Assembly: GCF_000355905.1 (NCBI RefSeq)
Contig: NZ_APLF01000005.1
Span: 1 to 64,000, forward strand
DNA from: Psychroflexus gondwanensis ACAM 44
Lineage (GTDB): Bacteria > Bacteroidota > Bacteroidia > Flavobacteriales > Flavobacteriaceae
Reading direction: 5' to 3'
Length of the DNA: 64,000 nucleotides
Positions 1 to 7,092 of this stretch are shown here, piece after piece (the first letter of the stretch is position 1; each line of letters opens with the position of its first letter). Made by a program: the position numbers and the translations under genes. Under the pieces are notes generated by a model. It saw nothing but the letters and a program-made list of their open reading frames with translations. It ran no database searches and was not told where the DNA came from.

Positions 1-198
1 AACGCCTAAGCTATAAGTAGTGCGGGAGCAGAGAAGCAATTCCCATTCCGCCACAGCCCGTAGCAAAAGCTTTTTGTTTTAATTTATGTTTTTTGTTTAA
101 AGTAAAATCCTAAAGATTTTGCGACCTCATAAAAATACGCAAACCTTTCGATTTAGCACCTTAGCCCGCATTACTTATAGGTTTTGTTGTAAGCAGGC
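1..198 (-). repeat. attC-like imperfect palindrome (cassette recombination site candidate)
   Basis: Bases 11-26 pair with 165-180 over 16 consecutive positions, 15 Watson-Crick and one G-U, enclosing about 138 bases. Outside this stem are unequal spacers (4-10 and 181-185). Beyond them lie AAC at 1-3 and GTT at 186-188, the latter inside GTTGTAAGC (186-194). The order core, asymmetric spacer, stem, large loop, stem, spacer, core is that of integron attC sites. The loop contains a smaller hairpin, AAAATC/GATTTT, near 105-122. The left core runs off the window, so the full site cannot be checked. It is longer than typical attC sites and matches the strict GTTRRRY consensus only in part. The structure is seen directly; a role in cassette recombination is inferred from the adjacent recombinase and from GTTGTAAGC recurring on the other side of the ORF. 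Confidence 0.55.
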
Positions 199-202
199 TT
201 TT

Positions 203-742
203 TTATTTTCTTTTTATTTTCAGTTCAATATCCAAGAAATACTCACTATCTTTTTTTATATCAAATTTTTCAGGATGGTTAATCAAGAATTGAGCTAGCC
301 TCTGTTCATTAAATGCACAATAATCTGCATTCATTATTAATACACCGTATATTTCAAGAATATTTCTTGCTTTCCGTTTTGGTTTCAAAAAATCAACGCA
401 TAATTCCAAAGTCGTAGAATCAAGCTTTAAGATACTAATTTTTGTTTTCCAGTTAAAATCATTTTCAGATTTTCCAAGTCCATAAAGCGCATCAAGTATT
501 TCTTGAACTCCGAATCCAGATTTATGATTTTTTTGATATAAAGGAGTTATAAGTTCTAACGTTTTTTTGTATTTCTTATTTATGTTAAGAATTACCGCAA
601 ACCTTTGTTGTGCGTATAAATCGGAAGGTTGTTTTCTTGCTCTTTCTTCTCTTAGTTTTAGTAAACTAACCCAATCTTCTTTTTCAAAAAGAACCTTATC
701 ATCTTCCCAGTCCTCTAATTCATATGTGTGTTCAAAATTCAT
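203..742 (-). CDS. Hypothetical protein, probable cassette-borne gene
   Basis: This 179-residue protein has no signal peptide or membrane segment. It opens with an acidic, tryptophan-containing stretch (two EDW repeats near residues 10 and 22). About residues 25-90 resemble one or two TPR-like helical hairpins (SLLKLREERARKQPSDLYA and the following helix). The C-terminus is basic. I do not recognise a family. The gene is flanked by inverted copies of GTTGTAAGC (186-194 and, on the minus strand, 853-845), so it has the size and layout of a one-gene cassette. It lies downstream of the recombinase gene on the same strand. No function can be assigned; a soluble, protein-binding role is only a guess from the TPR-like pattern. 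Confidence 0.65.
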   Translation of the reverse strand: MNFEHTYELEDWEDDKVLFEKEDWVSLLKLREERARKQPSDLYAQQRFAVILNINKKYKKTLELITPLYQKNHKSGFGVQEILDALYGLGKSENDFNWKTKISILKLDSTTLELCVDFLKPKRKARNILEIYGVLIMNADYCAFNEQRLAQFLINHPEKFDIKKDSEYFLDIELKIKRK

Positions 743-840
743 TAATCGAAATGCTCTTTTAGTAATTTATTTATTCTCAAATATACGTATCTGATTAATC
801 GTTTTTTGAATCAGTTTATTTATGCGTAGGGTTTTTCTCA

Positions 841-897
841 GCTTGCTTACAACATCCGTATAAACCCTATTCAAATCTTCATTATAGGGTATATATC
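841..897 (-). other. attI-like junction between recombinase gene and cassette
   Basis: On the minus strand, the recombinase stop codon is followed by a 7-bp perfect inverted repeat (ACCCTAT 864-870 with ATAGGGT 884-890). GTTGTAAGC (853-845) comes next. This nonamer is the inverse of the one at 186-194, so the ORF between them is bracketed by matching cores. In an integron this would be the first insertion point. The hairpin may equally be a weak transcription terminator for the recombinase gene. The repeat is seen directly; the attI role is inferred. Confidence 0.4.
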
Positions 898-900
898 TAT

Positions 901-2040
901 TTAGGACGTTGTTTTATTTTCATCTAAACTAACACTTTCATACATATTATCCAATGGACTTTTTATTGTTTTGTTATTAATCGCTAAAACTCGAGTATAA
1001 ATTTCTGTGGTTTTTGAGCTATTATGACCTAAAGCGGCCTGGATATGTCTTAAACTTGTCCCCCGTTCCATAAGGTGTGTGGCAAAACTATGACGTAAAG
1101 TGTGTGGGGTACTCCAAGGGTTTCCGTTGGTGTCTTTCACAGCTTTGCGATAAATACTTTGTATACTAGTACTGGAATACTGCCCGCCAGTTTGACCCTC
1201 GAACAACCAGTAAGCTGGCTTATAGATCTTGTAATACTCTCGAAGTAATTCTAACAGATGCTTGCTAAGTACGGTATGCCTGTCCTTCTTTCCTTTGGAG
1301 TCCTTAATAAAGATATAACCCTCTTCACTTCTTATGTCTACTACTCTTAGTCTAATCAATTCTCCAACACGTAAGCCTGCACCGTAAATAGTATGGAGGA
1401 TAGTTTTGTGCTTCAAATTACTAGGGCTGTTAATGATCTTTTTAACTTCGTTGATATGAAGGACGTTAGGTAAATCTTGACTCTTTTTAGGTCTAGTGAT
1501 GTTATAATATTCTCGTGGTAACCCTAAAGTATGCTCGTAGTAGCACTTAATAGCGTTAATAATAGTGTTTTGAGCAGATTCGCTTATCTTATATTTACTG
1601 ATCAATTCAAAAACATAGCCTTCTATTTGTTCCTTAGTCACTGATTTAAGAGATTGGTTTTCGAAATATTTAAAAAAAGGTTTTAGCGAGCTTTTATAAT
1701 TATCGACTGTGTTTTTACTAAATCCCTTTAAAACCATTTTTTGATGGGTTTTTTCAAGTTCTGCTTCACCCTGTCTGTTAAGGTCTATCTTGGGCATGCC
1801 CCTTGGTGCAGACTCTCCAACTTGAAGTAATTTACTGCCAAAGAGACTTTCAATTTTTTTAAGATTCTCTACTGTGTTAATCAGACTCCAAAGGTTCTGT
1901 TGAGGGTGATAATAGCTAGAGTCAAGTTTTTTAAAGCATTCCCGTTCAGCTTTCATAAGGAATGGAATATACACCTTTAACCGTTTGGCTTTTGGTAATG
2001 CGGTATAGATTAGAATGTTTTGATTTTTAGGGGCTTTCAT
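901..2040 (-). CDS. Tyrosine recombinase / site-specific integrase (XerC/D-like)
   Basis: This 379-residue recombinase catalyses DNA strand exchange through a tyrosine-DNA intermediate. A SAM-like core-binding domain occupies about residues 92-175 (FSKNTVDNY, with a helical bundle following). The catalytic domain is about 185-360. The active-site set is complete: R224 in GAGLRVGEL, a beta-hairpin lysine near 249-252, H313 and R316 in HTLRHSFATHL, H339 in ALGHNSS, and the nucleophile Y348 in TTEIYTRV. About 90 extra N-terminal residues resemble those of other Bacteroidota integrases. The extra domain that defines IntI between the second and third patches is not evident, so this looks XerD-like rather than a classical IntI. 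The cassette follows on the same strand, and an attC-like site lies beyond it. The enzyme appears intact and probably active. Confidence 0.9.
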   Translation of the reverse strand: MKAPKNQNILIYTALPKAKRLKVYIPFLMKAERECFKKLDSSYYHPQQNLWSLINTVENLKKIESLFGSKLLQVGESAPRGMPKIDLNRQGEAELEKTHQKMVLKGFSKNTVDNYKSSLKPFFKYFENQSLKSVTKEQIEGYVFELISKYKISESAQNTIINAIKCYYEHTLGLPREYYNITRPKKSQDLPNVLHINEVKKIINSPSNLKHKTILHTIYGAGLRVGELIRLRVVDIRSEEGYIFIKDSKGKKDRHTVLSKHLLELLREYYKIYKPAYWLFEGQTGGQYSSTSIQSIYRKAVKDTNGNPWSTPHTLRHSFATHLMERGTSLRHIQAALGHNSSKTTEIYTRVLAINNKTIKSPLDNMYESVSLDENKTTS

Positions 2041-2179
2041 TGTTTTTAGTCATATATAAATCATGTCAGGAGCTTCTAAATTAGTTAGAAATAAACTTAA
2101 AAGTCAAGTCTTTTAATAATTTAAAGGTATTTAACCGTTAAGAACGGATAGCCTATATTTAAGGATTGGTATAGGTGTT

Positions 2180-2539
2180 GTGAAAAATAAATGTAAAATA
2201 TGTAAGAAAACAATCATTGGGAGATCGGACAAGATCTTCTGCTCTACCTATTGTAAAAATTACTACCATAAGCATCTGCGATATGCAACCAAAAAGGCCG
2301 CAGTAGAAATTAATGGGTTTTTGAAACGCAATTATGCCATACTACTTGAGCTCGTAGGAAAGAATAAAACACAGAGAAAAGTGTATCGCAATCTACTTGC
2401 CAACAAAAACTTTCGCTTTAAATACCACACCCACCTTCAAACAAATTCTAAGGGTAAAACCTATCATTATATTTATGATCTAGCATGGATGCCATTTTCA
2501 GATGATGAAATCTTGATCATTAGAAAAAGGAATCCATAA
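2180..2539 (+). CDS. Small zinc-ribbon protein
   Basis: The 119-residue product starts at a GTG. The N-terminus carries a metal-binding pattern C-x2-C-x12-C-x3-C (C5, C8, C21, C25), followed by KNYYHKH. The remainder is basic and probably helical, then beta-rich, with a conserved-looking aromatic segment (KTYHYIYDLAWMPFSDDE). There is no signal peptide. The cysteine spacing suggests a zinc ribbon that could bind nucleic acid or stabilise the fold. Small proteins of this kind are frequent in accessory DNA of Flavobacteriia. It is divergent from the recombinase gene, with 139 bases between them, and belongs to the same accessory block. Function unknown. Confidence 0.7.
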   Translation: MKNKCKICKKTIIGRSDKIFCSTYCKNYYHKHLRYATKKAAVEINGFLKRNYAILLELVGKNKTQRKVYRNLLANKNFRFKYHTHLQTNSKGKTYHYIYDLAWMPFSDDEILIIRKRNP

Positions 2540-4784: not shown

Positions 4785-5525
4785 TTGACAACTATAAATC
4801 TAAATTGTGACTTAGGCGAAGGAGGGAAGTACGATGCGCTATTAATGCCGTTTCTGTCTTCTTGCAATATTGCTTGTGGCGGACACTATGGAACTTTCGA
4901 GTCTGTAAGAACAGCTGTTGACCTTGCAAAACAGCATCATGTGCAAGTTGGGGCACATCCTTCTTATCCAGACCTAGACAATTTTGGTCGCCAGTCTATG
5001 TCACTTCCCTTCCAAGACCTTAAGGAGAGTCTACACCATCAAATCGATTTGGTAGAAGAAGCCTGTTTGTTATATGAGGTCAACTTACATCACGTAAAGC
5101 CTCATGGGGCTTTGTACAATGATATGCGGAAAAGTCCAGAACTAGCAAATTTAGTGTTAGAGGTTATTCAGGAACGAAATAATGATTTGGTAGTGTTTAG
5201 CCCGCCTAGAGTAAATTTTCAAAACGAAATTCCAGATTCGATTCATATTTGGATTGAAGGTTTTGCAGATCGAGCCTATCAAAACGATTTAAGTTTGGTT
5301 CCAAGAACTCAAAAAAATGCTGTTCTAAACGATCCAGATCTTATTTTCAAAACTGTTTTCAATATGATAAAACATCAAAAAGTGAAATCAATTTCGGGTG
5401 AAGAAATCGATCAGAAATTTGATACTATTTGCGTGCATAGCGATACTCCAAATGCCCATGAAATTTTGAAGATATTGACCACCCAATTATCTAAAAATGG
5501 AATCAAAATAGATAGAAAATCATGA
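4785..5525 (+). CDS. pxpA: 5-oxoprolinase subunit PxpA (LamB/YcsF family)
   Basis: PxpA acts with PxpBC to hydrolyse 5-oxoproline (pyroglutamate) to glutamate at the cost of ATP. The 246 residues match the family length. Characteristic motifs are NLNCDLGEG at the N-terminus, SCNIACGGHYGT, GAHPSYPD, HHVKPHGALYND and EGFADRAY. The start is a TTG at 4785; translation from it gives the conserved first residues directly, and no nearer ATG would. The gene overlaps pxpB by four bases (ATGA), so the two are translationally coupled. The pathway removes spontaneously formed oxoproline in the cytoplasm. Confidence 0.93.
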   Translation: MTTINLNCDLGEGGKYDALLMPFLSSCNIACGGHYGTFESVRTAVDLAKQHHVQVGAHPSYPDLDNFGRQSMSLPFQDLKESLHHQIDLVEEACLLYEVNLHHVKPHGALYNDMRKSPELANLVLEVIQERNNDLVVFSPPRVNFQNEIPDSIHIWIEGFADRAYQNDLSLVPRTQKNAVLNDPDLIFKTVFNMIKHQKVKSISGEEIDQKFDTICVHSDTPNAHEILKILTTQLSKNGIKIDRKS

Positions 5526-6229
5526 GTGAATCTGTGCGTATATTTCAGCTTAGTGAGCGTTCAATTTTGATTGAATTTAACCGAGATATTAATAAAAGTC
5601 TCCTATATTTCCTTTTGAATTTAAAAGAAAATATCTTTCTAAATAAAGGTGAACAAATACTTCAAGTTACAAATACATACAATTCATTATTAGTTATTTA
5701 CAAATCCACTATAAATAATTTATATAGTGAAAAAGACAATTTTTTAGAACTTATTTCCGACGTATCTACAACGGATATGCCTAAGACTCCTACCAGAAAA
5801 ATACCAGTATGTTACGAGTTGGATTTTGGTTTAGATTTAGAAGAAGTTTCTAAAAAAACTGGCCTATCAATTTCAGAAATTATCAAGCGTCATACTCGCC
5901 CAATTTACACCGTATATTTCATCGGATTTTTACCTGGTTTTCCTTATTTGGGAGGTATGGATTCTTCCTTGTTTTGCAGGCGAAAATCCAATCCTAGGTC
6001 TAAGATAAATTCGGGTTCAGTTGGGATTGCTGGATACCAAACTGGAATTTACCCTTCAAGCTCTCCGGGAGGTTGGCAAATTATCGGAAGAACACCACTA
6101 TCTTTATTTGATAGTCATAAAACAGATACCCCGTGTGTTTTAAGTCCAGGAGATTCGCTCCAATTTGAATCAATTTCTAAGGAAGAATTTGATGACCTTC
6201 AATCTCATCCTTCCGACATAAAACTATAA
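5522..6229 (+). CDS. pxpB: 5-oxoprolinase subunit PxpB (KipI-like)
   Basis: This is the carboxyltransferase subunit 1 (AHS1/KipI) part of the oxoprolinase, 235 residues. The family signature FIGFLPGFPYLGG is present near residue 140, followed by PRSKINSGSVGIAG and TGIYPSSSPGGWQIIGRTPL. The N-terminal third is divergent, as is usual. It overlaps pxpA by four bases and ends two bases before pxpC, so the three form one operon. KipI homologues were first described as kinase inhibitors in Bacillus, but the pxpABC order here argues for the metabolic role. Confidence 0.92.
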   Translation: MSESVRIFQLSERSILIEFNRDINKSLLYFLLNLKENIFLNKGEQILQVTNTYNSLLVIYKSTINNLYSEKDNFLELISDVSTTDMPKTPTRKIPVCYELDFGLDLEEVSKKTGLSISEIIKRHTRPIYTVYFIGFLPGFPYLGGMDSSLFCRRKSNPRSKINSGSVGIAGYQTGIYPSSSPGGWQIIGRTPLSLFDSHKTDTPCVLSPGDSLQFESISKEEFDDLQSHPSDIKL

Positions 6230-6231
6230 GA

Positions 6232-7092
6232 ATGAGCATTTATATTCACAAAGCAGGATTGTATTCTTCTCTACAAGATAAAGGAAGGTTCGCGGGGATG
6301 CCTTACGGGGTTCCGATTTCTGGAGCTATGGATCAAAATCTTTATCATTTTACAAACCATATACTGGAGAATCCCCCCAATTCTTCATCAATGGAGTTTT
6401 ATCAACAAGGCTTAGAACTTGAGTTCACTTCACCAACATTTATGTGTATAGGCGCTTTAGGAGGCGATTTTAAACTCAATGATAAAGCGGTAGAACCTTT
6501 CGAAATCTTAAAGATCAAAAAAGGAGACTATCTTAAGATTAAACAACTAACAAAGGGGAATTGGGGATATATTGCTGTGAAAGGCGGCTTTGAGTCTGAA
6601 GGGCCGTTTAACAGTCAAAGTTTTTATGAGCCCATAACGAAGCGGCAATTTGAAAATGATGATGTTTTAATTTACAGGGCTTTCGATGGAGTGAGTGGTG
6701 GGGAGTCACCAGTATTGGACATGAGTTATTACACTTCAACTGAACTGGAGGTGTCTGAAGGTCCTGAATTTTATAAGCTAAGTCAAACCTTAGACTACCA
6801 ATTAAAACATGCTGAGTTTTCTTTGTCTACATCTTTGAACCGCATGGCTTATCAAATCCAAGAGCGTTTGGCAAATGACTTGGAGGAAATTATCACGGGT
6901 CCTGTGCTGCCGGGAACTATTCAGTTTACGCCTGCTGGGAAAATGATAGTATTGATGAGAGATGCACAAGTGACAGGTGGTTACCCACGAATCCTTCAGT
7001 TTTCTGAAAAGTCCATAAATCAGTTGTCGCAAATGCGAGTCAAATCAAAATTCACTTTTAAGCTTACCGGAATAAATTCAGAAAAGATTTGA
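6232..7092 (+). CDS. pxpC: 5-oxoprolinase subunit PxpC (biotin-dependent carboxyltransferase family)
   Basis: This is subunit C (AHS2/KipA) of the oxoprolinase. The 286 residues begin with the typical AGLYSSLQDKGRFAGMPYGV and contain GAMDQNLYHFTNHIL, the usual subunit interface and active-site region, and RDAQVTGGYPRI toward the C-terminus. It is somewhat short for the family (300-330 residues). Its last 29 bases overlap the convergent aldehyde dehydrogenase gene. It is the third gene of pxpABC. Confidence 0.92.
   Translation: MSIYIHKAGLYSSLQDKGRFAGMPYGVPISGAMDQNLYHFTNHILENPPNSSSMEFYQQGLELEFTSPTFMCIGALGGDFKLNDKAVEPFEILKIKKGDYLKIKQLTKGNWGYIAVKGGFESEGPFNSQSFYEPITKRQFENDDVLIYRAFDGVSGGESPVLDMSYYTSTELEVSEGPEFYKLSQTLDYQLKHAEFSLSTSLNRMAYQIQERLANDLEEIITGPVLPGTIQFTPAGKMIVLMRDAQVTGGYPRILQFSEKSINQLSQMRVKSKFTFKLTGINSEKI

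Follow-up and report, generated by a model that had tools for sequence, protein, structure and literature searches.

A putative chromosomal integron of Bacteroidia whose recombinase lacks the IntI additional domain

A contig of Psychroflexus gondwanensis ACAM 44 opens with a long hairpin, a single open reading frame (ORF) and a tyrosine recombinase gene, which raises the question of whether these parts constitute a gene cassette system. An earlier note on this DNA had read them as an integron-like cassette. The stretch analysed here, called the window, comprises the 64,000 nucleotides at the start of contig C5 (G000:C5:1-64000) of an assembly of 3.31 Mb in 62 contigs. We conclude with high confidence that the start of the window represents that end of a chromosomal integron which lies next to its recombinase gene. 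We found no report of this integron type in Bacteroidia, and recombination is inferred rather than observed. Seen directly are a recombinase gene, an attI-like site and a one-ORF cassette with its attC site, along with many more sites and cassettes on other contigs.

Layout of the locus

When read on the minus strand, the parts follow in the order recombinase gene, attI-like repeat, GTT (853–851), ORF, R″ arm, stem, long loop, stem and a GTT at the contig end (Table 1). This order identifies position 1, where AAC opens the contig, as a recombination core, which is what the earlier note had supposed. The cassette, estimated there at about 850 bases with a single gene, indeed measures 850 nt from GTT to GTT and carries one ORF. 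The same note had described a nonamer of the hairpin site that recurs, as an inverted core, on the far side of the ORF. The nonamer GTTGTAAGC does occur at positions 186–194 (plus strand), with its reverse complement at 845–853, one base beyond position 852 where the cassette had been thought to end, but the two copies are not odd inverted cores. The first copy belongs to the R″ arm of the attC site and the second is the cassette start, and thus their complementarity is expected and reflects normal attC anatomy.

Table 1 Features at the start of the window
Feature	Position	Strand	Basis or remark
Integron-type tyrosine recombinase, 379 aa	901..2040	-	Pfam PF00589 (5e-36) and PF13495
attI-like site, abutting the GTT of cassette 1	854..897	-	Inverted repeat ACCCTAT 864-870 / ATAGGGT 884-890
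Gene cassette 1, 850 nt, GTT at 853 to GTT at 3-1	4..853	-	Start GTTGTAAGCAaGCT versus R″ GTTGTAAGCAgGCT
Cassette ORF, 179 aa, orphan	203..742	-	
attC-like recombination site (window plus strand is the bottom strand)	1..199	-	R1 match, 183 bits, E 2.1e-40
R″ arm of AAC and 11 further nt, which pairs with the cassette start except for a fixed mismatch at base 8 after GTT	186..199	-	Arm length and mismatch from 160 cassettes
L″ half of stem	165..180	-	Aligned sites, covariation
L′ half of stem, with G20·T171 wobble found in 48/48 aligned sites	11..26	-	Aligned sites, covariation
R′ core GTT at the contig end; the following cassette is absent from the contig	1..3	-	

The exact cut position within the GTT of cassette 1 is inferred by analogy with classical integrons, and the R1 score of the attC-like site is that of a member of the model's own training set. 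No tRNA was detected in the first 20 kb of the window, and a promoter and terminator scan of positions 1–2200 gave counts below those in shuffled sequences. A small ORF with a Cys-rich, zinc-ribbon-like start and no Pfam or NCBIfam match adjoins the recombinase gene (2180–2539), and positions 4785–7092 hold three successive ORFs that we take to resemble the 5-oxoprolinase subunits pxpA, pxpB and pxpC.

A conserved hairpin with a preferred strand

The stem that the earlier note had drawn between positions 11–26 and 165–180 is present as 16 contiguous pairs, comprising 15 Watson–Crick pairs and one G·T pair (20 with 171). In alignment A1, which contains 48 sites including that of the window, 15 stem pairs are formed in 99.0% of cells, covariation reaches 0.535 compared with 0.154 for shuffled controls, and changes have occurred on both sides at 10 of the 15 pairs. 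Thus, the stem is supported above chance. In alignment A5, 19 pairs are formed in 94.9% of cells, with covariation of 0.541 compared with 0.172 when shuffled.

Specific positions in the bottom strand hold near-constant G·U pairs (48 of 48 and 44 of 48 sites in A1, and 42 of 50 at one position in A5, where a second near-constant wobble was seen by eye only). These conserved wobbles, G·T in the bottom strand, would be A·C mismatches in the top strand. With DNA folding parameters, the bottom strand is the more stable of the two in 128 of 144 short sites and in 81 of 91 long sites, compared with 45.5% of 705 controls.

Classical attC sites carry extrahelical bases in the stem. No regular extrahelical or bulged base was seen in the main stem of the sites described here, and the 14-pair run of the A1 stem, which holds the wobbles, has no bulge column. 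Short sites fold likewise, some with a bulge, and long sites have a conserved inner sequence. Stable hairpins in A+T-rich intergenic DNA, together with this inner sequence, could also indicate repeated structured elements, such as RNA genes, terminators or REP-like repeats, that lie between genes without any cassette mobility. Nevertheless, Rfam yields nothing above gathering scores in window positions 1–2200 and no match at E ≤ 0.1 in four array loci, and the relation between the hairpins and the cassettes, described below, bears on this possibility as well.

Related sites form dense arrays

The earlier note had specified beforehand that an absence of further copies in the same genome would refute its reading. 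A BLASTN search of the genome with the window site reveals no other copy that stands out (next best E value of 0.0475). The sites are too diverged for BLASTN, and covariance models were needed. A model built from 48 sites (R1) finds at least 30 sites in this genome at E ≤ 1e-3, the window site included, and a second model built from 50 short sites (R2) finds at least 15 more, giving at least 45 candidate sites. In each of these two scans, 150 candidates were scored out of more than 2,700, and the weakest matches may be false. Copies in one orientation and at ORF-sized spacing, which the note had proposed to look for, are found in this genome and in its relatives.

Nineteen of the 45 candidate sites in this genome reside on six contigs of 3–11 kb, and two are on C29. 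Contig ends truncate sites at C5:1, C2:183053, C29:1 and C30:1, and the arrays probably broke the assembly.

Among other genomes of the family, DNA similar to the site (E ≤ 1e-3) is present in at least 51 of 149, often several times each, as judged by BLASTN with five candidates scored per genome. Iterative profiles uncovered 66 sites in 16 of 17 fetched loci, which had been chosen for BLASTN matches, with a single orientation within each locus. R1 and R2 revealed dense arrays, and R1 sites are present in 50 of 247 genomes of the phylum under strict filters. Sites fall mainly into length classes of 120–130 nt (147 sites) and 180–192 nt (97), and 15 are shorter than 120 nt. No DNA match was found in plasmids or phages, each searched with one long site.

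The site set comprises the window site and 302 of 335 rows. The 33 omitted rows are antisense echoes of listed sites, partial or contig-end-cut matches and weak rows, and they include four of L083, one of L104 and L155:8306 (opposite orientation, 71.9 bits). R2 matches on the opposite strand are located at L155:7328, L155:8306 and L159:1393.

Cassettes begin and end at GTT

In integrons, a cassette carries along the bases that follow GTT, and in the circular form these bases pair with the R″ arm. For each site, we compared the bases that precede AAC with those that follow the GTT of the site before it. When first applied to profile sites, the comparison gave agreement for 13 of 20 cassettes shorter than 2 kb and for 0 of 19 longer gaps, in which covariance models later found missed sites. 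With covariance sites, and with repeats of the same places removed, arm and start are identical at six of six bases in 150 of 198 distinct consecutive pairs, compared with 0.98% for random pairing. A control in which each arm was compared with its own downstream neighbour gave identity in only 7 of 191 cases. In the genome of the window, 13 of 17 pairs agree at seven or more of nine bases.

The agreement spans 11 bases after GTT, with one fixed exception at base 8. Among 160 cassettes selected because arm and start share at least five of the first six bases, 159 have A at base 8 of the start, and in 143 the arm copy has G there, yielding a bottom-strand G·T wobble in 142. The window cassette conforms to this pattern (Table 1). 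In the same 160 cassettes, the core consists of GTT, then G or A, then T, G or C, followed by variable bases. Thus, GTTRRRY is not met, as the earlier note had pointed out for the window site.

Also informative are the 33 pairs of near-identical sites within one genome, 22 of which come from G080, whose arrays all reside in one 4.27-Mb contig. The G080 pairs represent shared cassettes. One cassette (404 nt to AAC) is present in six copies within a single 40-kb array region (L070:5525-10931 and L071:5413-18163), one of them being the first cassette at the attI-like site. All 15 comparisons of these copies show 100% identity from GTT to GTT among different neighbours, and identity extends only 0–11 bases past the first GTT and 0–5 bases past the second. 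The six copies represent a recent burst of copying. Five other G080 pairs likewise have both ends at GTT (97–100% identical), one is a block in which identity continues past the inner GTT, and another touches the end of the fetched stretch. A 582-nt cassette is common to two G014 arrays at 99.3% identity, and the other 10 near-identical pairs have the site alone in common. Between genomes, only four cassette bodies match; three of these are the same place from two collections, and the fourth match has 78% identity between two Aequorivita.

The arm and start identity, together with the duplicated cassettes, places the cassette boundaries at GTT and supports the integron-like reading that the earlier note had advanced. 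The alternative of immobile structured repeats offers no reason for an arm to match the opening bases of the cassette it belongs to, at a distance of hundreds of bases, rather than those of the next cassette. Likewise, cassettes that are identical from GTT to GTT and lie among different neighbours are already hard to reconcile with it, and we consider this alternative scarcely credible.

A tyrosine recombinase without the IntI domain

The window recombinase comprises a possibly HARP-like N-terminal domain (about residues 9–75), a core-binding domain and a catalytic domain with R224, K249, H313, R316, H339 and Y348. These six residues, whose catalytic roles we assume, are invariant in 22 homologues, and their letters were confirmed in the window protein. 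The R-K-H-R-H-Y signature of tyrosine recombinases is therefore met (22 homologues, Pfam PF00589).

The additional domain of IntI near patch III is absent, as suspected in the earlier note, and the alignment with IntI4 is split at that domain. In agreement with this, the spacing from K to H (HxxR) is short, at 61–65 residues in 99 of 101 non-canonical enzymes (75 of clade A, 18 of clade B and 6 without the HARP-like domain; the other two were not measurable). Canonical IntI proteins have a median spacing of 103 (range 35–107, 12 of 13). XerA and integron-integrase models match below their cut-offs (TIGR02249, 187.9 versus 265 bits). A tree leaves unresolved whether the non-canonical enzymes form a sister group to IntI or are ancestral to it, and the XerC/D branches of this tree are long. 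Relatives at E ≤ 1e-60 are present in 78 of 247 genomes of the phylum, not all of them linked to arrays.

An AlphaFold model of the recombinase (pLDDT 82, pTM 0.50) places the catalytic core nearest to the folds of XerA (Z 22.3), archaeal Xer (21.2) and IntI4 (19.7), and also to XerH. The first 80 residues form an extra domain (pLDDT 81 when modelled alone). Its list of similar folds begins with T4 UvsW (Z 6.2), includes XPB (about 5) and ends with SMARCAL1 HARP (4.0, last of 50); all values are below Z 8, and the unrelated proteins CASTOR1 and eIF1 score alike. HARP (PF07443) is the only Pfam family matched, albeit weakly, by more than two of 44 members of the domain (8 at E ≤ 10, best 0.0063), and the window's own domain has no match to this profile. 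A search of PDB sequences with a profile of the domain returned no HARP, UvsW or XPB among 11 matches at E ≤ 10. The likeness to HARP is suggestive only.

SOS control of integron recombinases is common, although not universal. A candidate signal, the motif CTAA-N5-TTAG at window positions 2080–2092, lies 48 nt before the recombinase start and is not conserved in relatives. The accessible part of one report gives this motif as that of LexA in Bacteroidetes (PMC8565304). It precedes only one of 78 clade A genes, which is that of the window, none of 22 clade B genes and 3 of 472 control ORFs. Thus, the occurrence in the window is probably coincidence, and SOS control was rejected.

An attI-like site and a one-way array

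A first GTT that fits the arm and start pattern was identified in 40 loci, and in 32 of them it lies 13–149 nt past the recombinase stop, with ties given to the GTT nearest the gene. Similar inverted repeats, judged by eye, precede this GTT. In seven locus pairs selected for at least 80% identity over the 60 bases before GTT (one pair being two loci of one genome), identity falls to 32–45% after it. In so far as sequence can tell, the expectation of an attI beside the recombinase gene is met.

Arrays extend to one side of the gene. Among GTDB loci found by the recombinase alone and holding at least 800 nt downstream, R1 sites are present downstream in 31 of 54 and R2 sites in 11 more. Across all 77 GTDB loci used (three of 80 had no ORF above the cut), there are 71 R1 sites in 264 kb downstream compared with 6 in 650 kb upstream. 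A wider set of 93 loci adds 16 from outside the GTDB set, namely the window and 15 chosen partly near known sites. Here R1 sites are found in 45 of 70 loci and R2 sites in 13 more, with the R2 scan limited to the 25 loci that lack an R1 match, and 145 sites lie downstream compared with 6 upstream. In the remaining 12 of 70 loci, neither R1 nor R2 detects a downstream site at the chosen cut-offs; all of these loci hold less than 3.4 kb there, and two (L132 and L178) have weak matches cut by a contig end. L155 is an exception, with upstream sites in the opposite orientation, and because rows such as L155:8306 were left out, the count of zero opposite-orientation sites in the 93-locus set holds only after this omission. 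Both the site set and the 93-locus set hold repeats of the same places, and 88 distinct recombinases are represented among 92 loci compared.

Integron recombinase genes are usually, but not universally, divergent from their arrays. The gene is codirectional with the array in the window and in the HARP-type loci with downstream sites. Relatives without the HARP-like domain, from another class of the phylum, have R2 arrays nearby and show the classical divergent arrangement (G192, G246, G184 and G318), and L100 is divergent as well. The recombinases without this domain near divergent arrays at L240–L243 and L256, in another class of the phylum, are about 280 aa long. Two further observations concern other recombinases. 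A second recombinase of the window's genome, of clade B, is encoded at the very start of a contig (G000:C10:45-1172; L228, L260), and therefore this genome may hold a second array or an array end. Three genomes encode another tyrosine-recombinase family (258–286 aa) close to attC-like sites, at distances of up to about 2 kb (G000:C2:179783-180790, L257:11447-12656 and L091:12112-15045).

Arrays of this kind could instead be decayed cassette clusters (CALIN) that were built by a canonical IntI encoded elsewhere, with the neighbouring Xer-like recombinase being unrelated. Four fetched arrays (L244, L246, L247 and L248) indeed have no recombinase match at E ≤ 1e-15 in their stretch, and canonical IntI exceeds the cut-off in 70 of 247 genomes of the phylum. 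However, at E ≤ 1e-60 it is present in no genome of the same family, and only in G183 among those of the same class. Furthermore, none of seven canonical-IntI loci (8.7–17 kb each, from other taxa) has an R2 site at E ≤ 1e-3. The fairest comparison is provided by G246 because both kinds of enzyme are present in this one genome: R2 sites lie within 5–11 kb of the recombinase without the additional domain and none at the canonical IntI. The break in identity at the attI-like site, directly beside the HARP-type gene, also argues against an unrelated recombinase, and we regard the decayed-cluster explanation as improbable.

The closeness of the catalytic core to XerA and archaeal Xer rather than to IntI4 would also fit a system of the Xer/dif or transposon type that mobilises its own recombinase gene and has the hairpins as its ends. 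Like dif, the attI-like site is an inverted repeat. Such a system does not account for a recombinase located at one end of the array and outside the repeated units, for cassettes that carry varied other genes or for the many attC-like sites per attI-like site, and we give it almost no credence.

Cassette contents

The longest ORF is in the sense orientation in 133 of 146 cassettes (a few of which were drawn twice) and antisense in 7, and no ORF of 50 aa is present in 6. The median ORF occupies 93% of the cassette body. A set of 119 of the 138 ORFs of at least 60 aa, taken together with the window ORF, matches 103 Pfam families, of which 12 are found in two to four members and the others in one, and cassette ORFs match 23 PADLOC families. 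Mixed cargo of this kind is usual for integrons. The window ORF has no Pfam, NCBIfam or PADLOC match (best PHROG E value of 0.048), no homologue in a search of 348 other genomes of the family (E ≤ 1e-5) and none at 1e-3 in plasmids.

Discussion

We favour the view that the window starts at the recombinase end of a chromosomal integron. Sedentary chromosomal integrons with canonical IntI, such as those of Vibrio, Treponema and Salinibacter, share with it a recombinase, an attI and a one-way array, usually one ORF per cassette, a GTT core, an R″ arm complementary to the cassette start, a more stable bottom-strand hairpin and diverse cargo. The system described here differs in several respects. 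Its recombinase has no IntI additional domain and carries a possibly HARP-like N-terminal domain, and in the HARP types the gene is codirectional with the array. The R arms measure 14 nt and contain a fixed wobble, no regular extrahelical base was seen in the stems, and the core departs from GTTRRRY. The Treponema attC has one protruding G, according to the part of PMC3607928 available to us.

Archaeal XerA and XerH have the same catalytic fold as the window recombinase (Z 19–22). They likewise have no additional domain, and they act on double-stranded sites of the dif type; we know of no example beside a cassette array. The branched-DNA-binding domains of HARP, UvsW and XPB proteins have a weak fold likeness and a weak sequence likeness to the N-terminal domain, and to our knowledge they belong to helicases or translocases rather than to recombinases.

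By most sequence tests the system is integron-like. It departs from expectation in lacking the additional domain and the GTTRRRY core and in a gene orientation that is not the usual one, and SOS control is not supported. Under a strict IntI definition, the system is not a member.

If the analogy holds, the bottom strand of the cassette, which is the plus strand of the window, would extrude as a hairpin in which R′/R″ and L′/L″ form two recombinase boxes. The recombinase would cut at G^TT and join attC to the double-stranded attI beside its own gene. Alternatively, recombination between two attC sites could excise a cassette circle that carries the start bases along. The choice of strand would probably rest on the conserved G·T wobbles, whose recognition is inferred, together with the unequal spacers. 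The HARP-like domain may help to grip the folded branch in place of the IntI additional domain, a role that is also probable only by inference. Bottom-strand recombination at G^TT is inferred from folding energies and junctions only.

A broader hypothesis is that the system constitutes a second solution to structure-based DNA recombination, wherein the IntI domain was never had or was lost, the hairpin is read through G·T wobbles (a single one in the R box and at most two in the L stem) and a HARP-like branched-DNA domain, attC sites range from about 45 to 190 nt and the whole has spread through Bacteroidota. We consider the arguments for and against this hypothesis to be evenly balanced.

Other classes of the phylum frequently carry canonical IntI, with the 70 of 247 genomes noted above, and thus the mere presence of integrons in the phylum is not a new finding. 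In the portions that could be consulted, one review lists Bacteroidota among integron-bearing phyla (PMC8618304) and another places intI in the Bacteroidetes/Chlorobi group (PMC2426708). On the same partial basis, the IntI additional domain and a classical attC model serve both to define integrons and to search for them (PMC9668308, PMC9024848), and the paper on archaeal integrons treats the additional domain as a defining trait (PMC9668308). The passages seen of the IntegronFinder 2.0 survey give one complete integron in Bacteroidetes, in Salinibacter, beside those of Chlorobi and Ignavibacteriae (PMC9024848). IntegronFinder 2.0 found no integron in a Tenacibaculum genome, according to an extract of PMC10013915, and Bacteroidetes are absent from the main text of a paper on taxon-specific attC models (PMC8352920), as far as its accessible text goes. 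Among the matches listed in open papers on integrons and attC, which were available in part and did not extend to preprints or most subscription papers, there was no report of such arrays in Bacteroidia. Prior notice of the system cannot be excluded.

The missing IntI domain and these partially available survey passages suggest that standard integron searches are not built to see the system, an inference made without running a finder. The presence of arrays beside domain-less recombinases in many Bacteroidota suggests that the group swaps genes by an overlooked route. If active, the system would represent a large unseen route of gene exchange, and it would provide a test of which enzyme and hairpin features the reaction really needs.
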